Shown: positions 2,564-6,117 of the stretch, piece after piece
Position numbering within the stretch: the stretch's first letter is position 1
Layout: the number at the start of each line of letters is the position of its first letter
Assembly (NCBI GenBank): GCA_016783505.1
Contig: JADHWK010000083.1
Location: 1 to 6,142, forward strand
Length of the DNA stretch: 6,142 nucleotides
From: Candidatus Zhuqueibacterota bacterium
GTDB lineage: Bacteria > BS750m-G25
Reading direction: 5' to 3'
The notes under the pieces: generated by a model
Told to the model about the DNA's origin: nothing
What the model saw: the letters and a program-made list of their open reading frames with translations, nothing else
The model's database searches: none
Position numbers and translations under genes: made by a program

Positions 2564-2950
2564 TCACCATATTGTTTCCACCACTTTTGCACTGGCAATT
2601 GTTTCATCCTTTGTAATTAAAGGAACCCCAGAAAAAAGTGCTGTTGCCACAATAAGTCTGTCGTGCATCTCCAGATCCACAGAAATGGTATCGGCTGTTT
2701 TCAGAACATCTACATCTAAAGGGACAATCTCGAAATTTTCATACATCTCCAGTCGGGTAAGCGTCTCCGCAAAGGTCAAAACGGTCTTACCCTTCTGGGC
2801 GATGTACATCAGCTCTGCCAGCACGATTGTCGGGACTAAAATGAGGCCTTCCTTTAGGGTTTCTTCAAAAGCATTTGAGGCTTTAAGACTTAACCTCTCG
2901 TCTTCCATAAAATACCAGACCAACGGATGGGTGTCTGTGAGATAATCCAT
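2564..2950 (-). CDS. vapC: VapC-type PIN-domain ribonuclease toxin, TA module 2
   Basis: The 128-residue protein starting MDYLTDTHPLVWY has the four VapC acidic positions: Asp6 (LTDTH), Glu46 (VLAELM), Asp97 (EMHDRLIVATA) and Asp115 (LITKDE). Length and motifs match the usual ~130-residue VapC. An in-frame GTG two codons upstream (2956) is possible, but ATG at 2950 places the DTH motif at the standard distance from the start. Family members are Mg2+-dependent RNases neutralised by the VapB antitoxin. The gene lies 21 bp downstream of the VapB-like gene in the same transcript and shows no damage. It is the closest relative in the window of the split toxin at 4551-5042 (shared VPTIVL, HDR and ITxD segments). 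Confidence 0.88.
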   Translation of the reverse strand: MDYLTDTHPLVWYFMEDERLSLKASNAFEETLKEGLILVPTIVLAELMYIAQKGKTVLTFAETLTRLEMYENFEIVPLDVDVLKTADTISVDLEMHDRLIVATALFSGVPLITKDETIASAKVVETIW

Positions 2951-2971
2951 AAGCACCGTAGAATTACAGGG

Positions 2972-3208
2972 TCAGTGATCCTCGTAATGAAAAAGCGACC
3001 GCCGAGCTTCTCTGAATAGATGTTCGTCAATTTGGCTTCCTTTCCAGATCCCTTTTAAGGAACCCCGCCCATTCCCCTTCTTTTTAGTTACCCTCTGCCA
3101 CTGAACTTCAAGAAGCCTGATCATCCTGTAGAGACTAGGAATAATTTCCCGAGGAAGCGTTTGGATTTCCTCGATAATTTTCTCGCGATAGTTTTGTTGT
3201 ATAGCCAT
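2972..3208 (-). CDS. VapB-like antitoxin, TA module 2
   Basis: The 78-residue protein has an amphipathic N-terminal half (YREKIIEEIQTLPREIIPSL..., about 7-45), a basic linker (TKKKGNGRG) and a C-terminal toxin-binding-like tail, GSLKGIWKGSQIDEHLF then REARRSLFHYED. The tail motif SLxGxxKG...EAxRSLF is shared with the antitoxin at 5043-5261, so both belong to one family (VapB / DUF2281-like by resemblance). The start at 3208 has AGGAG about 7-8 nt upstream, inside the end of the preceding RHH gene, with only 1 nt between genes. The product would bind and inhibit the VapC encoded directly downstream and probably autoregulate the operon. Confidence 0.75.
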   Translation of the reverse strand: MAIQQNYREKIIEEIQTLPREIIPSLYRMIRLLEVQWQRVTKKKGNGRGSLKGIWKGSQIDEHLFREARRSLFHYEDH

Positions 3209-3209
3209 T

Positions 3210-3425
3210 TCACAACTCCTTTTCCTTCAAAGCCGCTTCAAAATTCGCCAATGCTTCGTCACTTAGCTTATCCCATGCCCTTAATTCATCTTCTAAGCCC
3301 TCTTCCACTATGGGTAAATAATACCTCAGGGCTTCAACGACAATTTCTTCTTGTGTTGTCTTTTTCCCCTTTGCCAGTTTTGTGACCTTTTCCCCAATAT
3401 CGTTTGGAATAGTTACTTTTATCAT
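3210..3425 (-). CDS. Ribbon-helix-helix (CopG/Arc-like) protein, first gene of TA module 2
   Basis: The 71-residue product begins MIKVTIPNDIGEKVTKLAKG then KKTTQEEIVVEALRYYLP. This is the beta-strand, helix, turn, helix plan of an RHH DNA-binding domain (residues 1-38). It is followed by an acidic helix, LEDELRAWDKLSDEALANFE, typical of an antitoxin's toxin-binding tail. The start at 3425 has GGGAG (3433-3437) at a good distance. It leads a tight operon (1-nt gap to the VapB-like gene). An RHH protein in addition to a VapB-like antitoxin is unusual. It may be the operon repressor, a second antitoxin, or an orphan from another module. Confidence 0.7.
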   Translation of the reverse strand: MIKVTIPNDIGEKVTKLAKGKKTTQEEIVVEALRYYLPIVEEGLEDELRAWDKLSDEALANFEAALKEKEL

Positions 3426-3429
3426 GATT

Positions 3430-3642
3430 TTACTCCCTTATGTTTAGTTTAAATGAAGAAATTGAGACATTTATATTTACACCAAAGTTGGCATATTCTA
3501 TTTTGCACCAAGACATGCGTGAGTTGGTGCTGGAGGGGGAGAATTCAATTCGGTTCCAGGAGCCAAGCTGGGCTGTAACCTAATTAAGAATTAAGAAAAT
3601 TAAAACCCAGAAATTGGCCAAGTTTATGTTGGTTTTTGTCAT
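3430..3642 (-). pseudogene. Truncated secreted beta-helix protein, copy B, with an internal stop
   Basis: The frame starts at ATG 3642 as MTKTNINLANFWVLIFLILN, a signal peptide nearly identical to copy C. A TAG at 3580-3582 then replaces the TCG serine codon of copy C, a single base change. The frame continues with VTAQLGSWNRIEFSPSS and SRMSWCKIEYANFGV. Homology to the other copies ends near 3482, after which the frame reads unrelated residues and stops at 3430-3432, directly ahead of the RHH gene. The copy is therefore both truncated and nonsense-mutated. It lies in the same orientation directly upstream of TA module 2, so its promoter region may now serve that operon. Confidence 0.75.
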
Positions 3643-4550: not shown

Positions 4551-5042
4551 CTATTCAATAATTGTGACCTCACCAGAATCCTTTATGATCCGGTCTCTTG
4601 TAATAATCCCCGCACCATAAAATCTCGCTGTTGCCGATATGATGCGATCATGGATCTCTATAACCCCTTTCGCCCTTATCGTTTCATCAAAAATCTCAGG
4701 GGTAAACCCCGTTAGATAACATTGTAAATTTGGACATTTAAGTAGGTTTTTTTGAAACTTACTAATTCTATCAGCTAATAAAGATTACAGAATATCTAAC
4801 GGGGTAAACCCAATGATCTCAAAACTTGGATCATTCCTTACAAACCGATACATTTCCTCAAAATCAAACTCAGCCTTTCGCTTCTCCGCTATATCAAGAG
4901 CCTCCGAAAGCACTATCGTAGGGACTAACAACTTCCCTCCCATAATACGACATCTATCAATGGCTTCCCTGGCCTTAAGTTTTAGCCGTCTGCTGCCAAT
5001 TAAATACCAGATGAGACTATGAGTATCCAATAGATAATTCAT
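4551..5042 (-). pseudogene. vapC: VapC-type PIN toxin split by a 98-bp element, TA module 3
   Basis: From ATG 5042 the frame encodes MNYLLDTHSLIWYLIGSRRL ... SFEIIGFT (80 residues), then enters the element at 4707-4804, reads PLDIL and stops at 4785. The rest of the toxin resumes beyond the element as PEIFDETIRAKGVIEIHDRI, ISATARFYGAGIITRDRIIK, DSGEVTIIE and a TAG at 4551-4553. Joining the halves with one TAAA target copy gives an uninterrupted 129-residue VapC with Asp6, Glu47, Asp98 and Asp116, the same length and plan as the toxin at 2564-2950. The truncated product lacks Asp98 and Asp116 and should be inactive. Its start directly abuts the antitoxin stop (TAGATG). The insertion leaves an intact antitoxin with a disabled toxin. 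Confidence 0.9.
4707..4804. mobile_element. Small inverted-repeat element E4 (98 bp) inside vapC
   Basis: Ends are CCCCGTTAGATA and TATCTAACGGGG, a perfect 12-bp inverted repeat, with TAAA on both sides (4703-4706 and 4805-4808) as a 4-bp target duplication. Removing the element and one TAAA rejoins GAG ATC ATT GGG TTT with ACC CCT GAG and restores the VapC frame. The interior carries a 9-bp hairpin (AGTAGGTTT at 4741-4749 with AAACTTACT at 4755-4763) and no ORF. The terminal sequence differs from the other complete copies by CCCC for CCCT and GATA for AATA, marking a subfamily shared with the end at 1-12. Confidence 0.88.
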
Positions 5043-5261
5043 CTATATATCTTTCAGTTCCCGGAATAGGGAGCGCTTGGCCTCTTTTATCATCTCCTCT
5101 GTGACATCTCCCCCCTTAACGCTACCGTATAAAGAAGCCTTTTGAATTCTCCTCGTCGGCTGAATACCTCTCACCAACGCCCGTTTTAAGAACTCCAATT
5201 GTCTCTGCATAGTATCTAGGCGCTTTAGAAAACGTTCGGTATCTAACAATGCCTTGCTCAT
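5043..5261 (-). CDS. VapB-like antitoxin, TA module 3
   Basis: The 72-residue product starts MSKALLDTERFLKRLDTMQR with a helical N-terminal half (to about residue 30) and ends ASLYGSVKGGDVTEEMIKEA then KRSLFRELKDI. The tail matches the SLxGxxKG...EAxRSLF motif of the antitoxin at 2972-3208, placing both in one VapB-like family. AAGGG and GAGG lie just upstream of the ATG, and a TATAAT box precedes them. The stop codon TAG directly abuts the ATG of the disrupted vapC. The gene looks intact even though its toxin is broken, so it may persist as an orphan antitoxin. Confidence 0.75.
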   Translation of the reverse strand: MSKALLDTERFLKRLDTMQRQLEFLKRALVRGIQPTRRIQKASLYGSVKGGDVTEEMIKEAKRSLFRELKDI

Positions 5262-5267
5262 TTTCCC

Positions 5268-5510
5268 TTACCTCATTACATTATACCAATTAGAACAATT
5301 TCTCACGATAAGGTGTTTCAGTTCCGGCGAAGCCCCATCGCAGTAAATCCCAAAGTTAGCGTATTCTATTTTGCACCAGTACATGCGGGAGTTGGTACTG
5401 GAGGGGGAAAACTCAATTCTATTCCAATCGCCAGGCTGGGCTGTAACCGAATTAAGAATTAAGAAAATTAAAACCCAGAAATTGGCCAAGTTTTTGTTGG
5501 TTTTTGACAT
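5268..5510 (-). pseudogene. Truncated secreted beta-helix protein, copy C
   Basis: The frame starts at ATG 5510 with signal peptide MSKTNKNLANFWVLIFLILN followed by SVTAQ, then the mature start PGDWNRIEFSPSS, SRMYWCKIEYANFGIYCDGA and LKHLIVRNCS. Homology with copy A stops at RNCS (near 5292); the last seven residues (NWYNVMR) come from the regulatory region of TA module 3 and include its TATAAT. The 80-residue ORF therefore carries only the first two or three coils of a beta-helix. The first 80 bp of this copy match copy B at about 95% by eye, and the next 145 bp match copy A at about 90%. A short secreted peptide could still be produced, but the gene is clearly a fragment. Confidence 0.8.
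5280..5285 (-). promoter_or_regulatory. Candidate -10 box of TA module 3
   Basis: TATAAT, a perfect sigma-70 -10 hexamer on the minus strand, lies 18 nt upstream of the antitoxin ATG at 5261. No good TTGACA is seen 17 bp further upstream. It lies just outside the beta-helix homology, so it would have arrived with the TA cassette or formed at the junction. The call rests on one hexamer in AT-rich DNA. Confidence 0.35.
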
Positions 5511-5622: not shown

Positions 5623-5720
5623 CCCTGTTAAATAATACTTGTTTATTAACCATTTAGTTTGATGTTCTTTATATTGTTTTGCTGAAAAAGTCGTTATTAA
5701 ATATCATATATTTAACAGGG
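5623..5720. mobile_element. Small inverted-repeat element E2 (98 bp) inside the second four-helix gene
   Basis: Ends are CCCTGTTAAATA and TATTTAACAGGG (perfect 12 bp). Flanks are TTTA (5619-5622) and TGAA (5721-5724); in gene orientation TTCA and TAAA, so the 4-bp duplication has diverged. Excision keeping TAAA rejoins GTT CTA AAC GGC (Val-Leu-Asn-Gly) in frame, matching the expected LIKVLNGYI of the protein family. The interior is AT-rich without an ORF and shares CATTTAGTTT with the element at 869-972. Confidence 0.85.
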
Positions 5721-5849
5721 TGAAGAACTTTAATCAAGTGATAGGCATCGCGTTTCAAGCTGTCCCGATATTCTTCATCAATGTAACCTTCATCAAAACA
5801 TTCATTGAAGTCGTCTATCAGTTCACATATAGATCCTCTTGATTGACGA

Positions 5850-5865
5850 TCCCGATTATTCGGGA
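5850..5865. repeat. Mini-palindrome TCCCGATTATTCGGGA causing a frameshift
   Basis: A 6-bp stem (TCCCGA/TCGGGA) with loop TTAT sits between the codons for QENI and QSRGS of the second four-helix gene. Family members normally have about four residues there (12 nt); here there are 20 nt, a net +8 that breaks the frame. It resembles the palindromes at 3715-3735 and 3752-3765. Confidence 0.6.
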
Positions 5866-6017
5866 AATATTCTCTTGATAATGGTAGCGACCATAGCCTT
5901 CAGCAATGTTGTTTGTAACCGATAATTTGGCTCTTCGCATTTGACTTTTGAGATTGTATTTTTCTTCTTCTGGTAATATTTTTATTAACATGCTGACTTT
6001 TCGACTAAACGCTCTGG

Positions 6018-6117
6018 CCCTGTTAAATAACCAGCATATCCCATCCGTCGTCAGCGATCTGATCTACCATTTCTAACTTGTTTCAAATAACGTTATCTGT
6101 TGATCTATTTAACAGGG
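6018..6117. mobile_element. Small inverted-repeat element E3 (100 bp) inside the second four-helix gene
   Basis: Ends are CCCTGTTAAATA and TATTTAACAGGG, flanked by a perfect 4-bp direct repeat CTGG (6014-6017 and 6118-6121). Removing the element and one CTGG gives, on the minus strand, AAG TTA GCC AGA GCG TTT (KLARAF), restoring the conserved LEVYKLARAF start of the four-helix family. The interior is less AT-rich than the other copies and does not align with them, although length and ends are conserved. Confidence 0.9.

Follow-up and report, generated by a model that had tools for sequence, protein, structure and literature searches.

A 98-bp palindromic insert that splits a vapC toxin gene shares its inverted ends with small GIY-YIG nuclease genes and belongs to a widespread family of short elements

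In bacteria, miniature inverted-repeat transposable elements (MITEs) are short, non-coding and multicopy, possess inverted ends, carry direct repeats at some copies and can interrupt genes, as does the MITE within hupL in Thiomargarita (PMC4853749). In the system of repetitive extragenic palindromes and their associated tyrosine transposases (REP/RAYT), palindromic repeats are associated with a small nuclease gene that carries the same repeats, and free-standing or intron-encoded GIY-YIG homing endonucleases (PF01541) consist of a single GIY-YIG catalytic domain for which selfish behaviour is plausible. The 6,142-nucleotide stretch of DNA analysed here (called the window) is one entire contig (JADHWK010000083.1, in our numbering G000:C38) of the 2.5-Mb, ~60% complete genome of Candidatus Zhuqueibacterota bacterium (GCA_016783505.1). 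As in VapBC type II toxin-antitoxin systems, this window contains a VapC/PIN toxin gene adjoining an antitoxin-sized open reading frame (ORF), and the toxin gene is broken by a 98-bp palindromic insert. We read this insert, with a probability of about 0.65, as a non-autonomous member of a GIY-YIG-linked family of very small mobile elements with ends CCCYGTTARATA..TATYTAACRGGG. The reading is carried by the anatomy of the insertion, the palindrome family, its coding members and the joint change of ends and gene lineage.

The insert occupies positions 4707-4804, with an interior that is single-copy in the genome and two 12-bp inverted ends, CCCCGTTAGATA (4707-4718) and TATCTAACGGGG (4793-4804, both on the forward strand), that form a perfect pair. 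As single-stranded DNA it folds with a z of -5.25 compared to shuffled sequences (0/200 as good), and it is bordered on both sides by TAAA (4703-4706 and 4805-4808), the 4-bp direct repeat expected of a target duplication. The toxin gene lies on the reverse strand. Its 5' half (4806-5042; 79 codons, MNYLLDTH..FEIIGF) encodes the N-terminal part of the PIN domain with two of the four acidic residues, and its 3' half (4551-4700), consisting of 49 codons (4700-4554, PEIFDETIRAKGVIEIHDRIISATARFYGAGIITRD..) and a stop codon (4551-4553), carries EIHDR and TRD. The 5' half matches positions 1-58 of the Pfam PIN profile (E 2.5e-5) and the 3' half, which on its own scores under the curated cut-off, positions 85-116 (E 0.0055), without overlap; an intact VapC encoded at 2564-2956 matches them at 43% over 77 and 48% over 29 amino acids, respectively. 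With two undecayed, in-frame halves, each matching its own part of the domain, and TAAA on both sides, the original prediction of a vapC gene split by a 98-bp element is borne out. The 105 bases between the halves comprise the element (98), the second TAAA (4) and one codon (3), and therefore the 129 residues predicted for the joined toxin follow by arithmetic (237 + 3 + 147 bases).

In its present state the gene yields a read-through ORF (4785-5042, reverse strand) of 85 amino acids that stops at GFTPLDIL* within the element, short of the two acidic residues in the 3' half. The putative antitoxin ORF (5043-5261, reverse strand, 72 amino acids) abuts vapC directly upstream and is open. No family match was found for it in Pfam or NCBIfam, and its C-terminal part resembles a neighbouring putative antitoxin at 2972-3208 (12/27, E 6e-7). 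The toxin inactivation and the intact antitoxin ORF described earlier are both recovered. In itself this break is an ordinary gene inactivation; more interesting is the element, as one of a very widespread family linked to GIY-YIG nuclease genes, a connection that had been missed.

In the insert's own genome, the 12-mer end CCCYGTTARATA occurs 31 times (14 + 17) compared to once (0 + 1) for a reversed control pattern, and exact end pairs at 95-104 bp number eight compared to none; shorter forms of ~30-33 and 62 bp are also present. The window holds four of these eight exactly paired elements, namely the vapC insert and the copies at 869-972 (104 bp, ends CCCTGTTAAATA..TATTTAACAGGG, flanks TTCA/TAAA), 5623-5720 (98 bp, flanks TTTA/TGAA) and 6018-6117 (100 bp, with a perfect 4-bp direct repeat CTGG), as well as the right end of a fifth copy, cut by the contig start (1-12, TATCTAACGGGG, flank TAAA). 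The interiors of the ~98-bp class in this genome are mutually as unlike as shuffled sequences (mean score 16.6 vs 16.5). A structured interior was likewise rejected, as those of the 91-110-bp class have a mean fold z of +0.26. In the ~98-bp class, the ends and the length are conserved and the interior is not; amplified sub-families with a common interior do exist in some genomes.

When 85,000 species genomes were scanned for one version of the ends, with at least one end of the CCCT type, at least 118 contig stretches with the same ends were found; up to ~167 ends were present in a single genome. Among the matches listed were WOR-3, Stahlbacteria, TA06, Scalindua and other Planctomycetota, Desulfobacterales (Desulfobacterota), CPR groups, Omnitrophota, Bacteroidota, Armatimonadota and a Clostridium. 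Element sizes cluster at 48, 53-56, 59-63 and 92-104 bp. Rfam holds no family matching the palindromes, and searches of viral contigs and plasmids returned nothing informative on the element. The vapC insert shows terminal inverted repeats, multicopy ends and no ORF, and it has the target-site duplication (TAAA/TAAA) typical of MITEs, although most family copies are without a perfect repeat.

Perfect 4-bp direct repeats, among them TAAA, CTGG, TCAA, CGAG, TATA and CAAG, flank 15 of the 156 distinct elements, compared to a mean of 1.7 and a maximum of 6 in 1000 shuffles, and for this reason some copies, including the one in vapC, resemble genuine insertions that duplicated 4 bp. Three GGGGGAGGG..GGTGGGGGT repeats lacking the insert were found as possible empty sites of the 32-bp copies; the halves are separated by four bases in two of them and by three in one, which is compatible with a 4-bp duplication without proving it. 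The 62-bp TCAA copies yielded no empty site in the insert's own genome.

Besides these non-coding palindromes, there are longer elements (269-300 bp) whose ends match and which each contain a single gene, for a GIY-YIG nuclease of ~84 residues. At one locus (L264), the ends around the GIY-YIG gene, CCCCGTTAGATA..TATCTAACGGGG, are identical to those of the vapC insert. A complete deltaproteobacterial genome contains two longer end pairs, of 276 and 422 bp and 77% alike, that encode a small GIY-YIG nuclease, the frame being broken in the 422-bp copy, and the same 276-bp layout is present in Scalindua rubra (Planctomycetota). In these two genomes of different phyla, the element reads TTTA|CCCTGTTAAAT..ATTTAACAGGG|TGAA around a GIY-YIG gene ending LKSYLTG*, the protein of which matches Pfam PF01541 (E 2e-17). 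In Scalindua rubra, TTTA and CCCTGTTAAAT precede the start codon, the GIY-YIG domain follows, and the terminal LKSYLTG is encoded by ..TATTTAACAGGG, the first bases of the flank supplying the stop codon TGA. Coding members typically share this arrangement, in which the C-terminal YLTG is encoded by the right end and the stop codon opens the flank; the right end of the vapC insert likewise spells YLTG, followed by TAA, on the forward strand. In a search set of 47 genomes holding small elements, relatives of the GIY-YIG protein were found in 41, and in at least 11 of the 47, from several phyla, the gene is framed by both ends, each with at most one mismatch from the consensus; the intact elements among these measure 269-299 bp. 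Moreover, two coding copies within one genome are 88% identical, and their likeness is confined to the element and ~12 bp or less on each side, as expected for a mobile unit.

The ends also change together with the nuclease. In diverged members they depart from the consensus yet still pair with each other, as in CCCCGTGAAGTA/TTACTTCACAGGG, TCCAGTTAGAAATT/AATTTCTAACTGGA, TCCCGTTAGTGAC/GTCACTAACGGGA, CCCCGTGAGATA/TATCTCACGGGG and CCCTGTGTAATA/TATTACACAGGG, and one diverged 22-bp end, CCCCCACACTAATTAAGGATTT, faces its exact complement. Complementarity between the two sides of the same gene exceeded that between genes in every identity class (0/5000 permutations), and an end-pair score of at least 12 was reached by 28 of 65 GIY-YIG genes compared to 8 of 1,063 random ORFs (Fisher p 7e-31). 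The ends therefore belong to the nuclease unit and are no chance palindrome.

Several known types of element were considered and rejected. The Y1 genes of REP/RAYT systems do not accompany the ends, and no Y1 match was obtained in a genome with 25 ends. IS91/Y2 transposases were considered because of the GAAC and CAAG flanks, and the ends are absent from every Y2 locus. Integron attC sites (RYYYAAC 5', GTTRRRY 3') have the reverse box order, as GTTARAT comes first here and ATYTAAC last. A hidden full-length insertion sequence (IS) did not emerge either: in 1.1 Mb, end pairs spaced 130-5000 bp never came with a convincing direct repeat, and a single 1.5-kb end pair encloses ordinary genes.

In our reading, a copy with 12-bp ends entered vapC at TAAA, duplicating those four bases, and cut the gene such that no complete toxin can be made any more and the putative antitoxin gene stays intact. 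In the mechanism we propose, the GIY-YIG enzyme would recognise the ends and would move the coding members and, in trans, the non-coding palindromes; the insertion into vapC may have followed this GIY-YIG-driven route, so that the insert was possibly moved by such a nuclease. In its full form, namely that the ~84-residue GIY-YIG nuclease is the sole enzyme of the 270-300-bp mobile elements and also moves the ~30-107-bp palindromes, one of which broke vapC, the proposal is tentative, with odds slightly below even. If true, these elements would rank with the smallest autonomous mobile elements known and would use a class of mobility enzyme outside the DDE, HUH, serine and tyrosine recombinases. 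Moreover, the link between the ends and small GIY-YIG genes offers a candidate source for the palindromic repeats scattered in uncultured phyla, for which no explanation was found in the literature. A search of the literature by motif and topic, with incomplete coverage, retrieved no paper on the motif or on bacterial GIY-YIG elements with inverted ends.

A number of points weigh against the GIY-YIG-linked reading. In most elements, the coding ones included, the flanking tetramers are unequal, TTYA or CYTG on the left and TRAA on the right, which read outward are mostly TGAA, TAAA, CAGG, GAAC, CGAG or CAAG. Inside the small elements there is no real similarity to the GIY-YIG gene; their interiors do not stem from it, and they are therefore not simple deletion derivatives. 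A GIY-YIG gene with matching ends was not found in the insert's own ~60% complete genome, and the co-occurrence of gene and small elements was counted only in genomes with small elements. Finally, we know of no mechanism by which a lone GIY-YIG domain acts as a transposition enzyme.

The main rival explanation, which we consider unlikely, holds that the palindromes are ordinary MITEs moved by some transposase and that the GIY-YIG genes are homing endonucleases which settled inside them and ride along. It would account for the unrelated interiors of the small elements, for the sharing of the same ends by several size classes and for the 4-bp direct repeats, which a conventional transposase would leave, and it agrees with single-domain GIY-YIG proteins being known mainly as homing or repair-like nucleases and, as far as we are aware, never as transposases. 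Against it, neither a long end pair with a transposase, in the 1.1 Mb around the elements, nor accompanying Y1 or Y2 transposase genes were found. End sequence and nuclease lineage covary; because of this covariation and of the stop codon at the border of the end, gene and ends form one unit.

Two further explanations were weighed. That the palindrome is a structural or regulatory repeat (a REP-like hairpin or a terminator), arisen in place or spread by recombination instead of by mobile insertion, fits the seemingly intergenic position of many copies, the location of some inside larger repeats and the folding of the 48-57-bp classes as an outer stem with two hairpins; yet the vapC copy disrupts a coding frame and is flanked by a perfect 4-bp direct repeat, such repeats recur at further copies in several genomes and Rfam offers no counterpart. 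We regard this explanation as very improbable. Hardly credible, in our view, is the reversible switch put forward in the original prediction, in which precise excision would turn the toxin back on. Both vapC halves are undecayed and in frame, but a recent insertion explains this equally well: any 4-bp-duplicating insertion into an undecayed gene leaves halves that restore the full frame, which as such are no evidence of excision and indicate no more than an insertion too recent for decay to have set in. In the assembly, moreover, the region is present once, with no empty allele, and the ~60% complete genome has yielded no matching nuclease gene.

Other small GIY-YIG ORFs occur in different contexts. 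Two (L236 and L247) are enclosed by repeats, GTCATTGCGAGG..CCTCGCAATGAC and ATTCCCGC..GCGGGAAT, that resemble common genomic repeats and may be the ends of other GIY-YIG families. Four others in the insert's own genome, L233 (C81:39314), L237 (C5:38558), L242 (C81:27079) and L246 (C85:50600), directly adjoin a tRNA gene (Pro, Asp, Ala, Asn) and have on their other side direct repeats of the tRNA or its flank, in some cases a degenerate partial copy of that same tRNA; apparently these represent a second class of GIY-YIG mini-elements, aimed at tRNA genes.

In the window, directly after the 869-972 copy, lie two more palindromes, AAATCCTACGAAGGATTT and CCCGTGAAATTGAACGAAGTGAATTATTTCACTGGG (961-1035), the latter resembling the GTGAAAT-type ends of diverged GIY-YIG elements. 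Another VapC-like PIN toxin, which is intact, and its putative antitoxin, with a weak DUF2281 match (2564-3208), form a cluster of toxin-antitoxin-like genes with a ribbon-helix-helix ORF (weak match, 3210-3425). Around the toxin-antitoxin genes, a surface-protein-like gene fragment is present in three copies that are 65-93% identical (2104-2238, 3424-3558 and 5292-5426), of which the last two share 161 nucleotides at 89%. Between two element copies lies a partial 23S rRNA intervening-sequence protein (PF05635, E 1e-12; 5818-5991). The right end of the contig (6018-6142) overlaps the start of another contig (G000:C43:1-97), so that the window can be extended rightwards.

Compared to VapBC systems, the locus described here differs in having a broken toxin gene and a putative antitoxin outside the Pfam and NCBIfam families. 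REP/RAYT systems are set apart by their Y1 gene, none of which is associated with the present elements. The homing endonucleases, for which the nearest solved structures are 1YWL and 1ZG2 (UPF0213), share the catalytic domain; here, however, covarying inverted ends flank the gene precisely, forming a 270-300-bp unit that in addition has non-coding relatives with the same ends. For bacterial MITEs, ends shared with a transposase-bearing parent would be expected; the ends described here match no IS found and are shared with GIY-YIG nuclease elements, and the interiors vary from copy to copy as end sequence and length stay the same. The vapC insert is as such best described as a MITE-like element, and it would represent a new class if the GIY-YIG nuclease proves to be its mobility enzyme.
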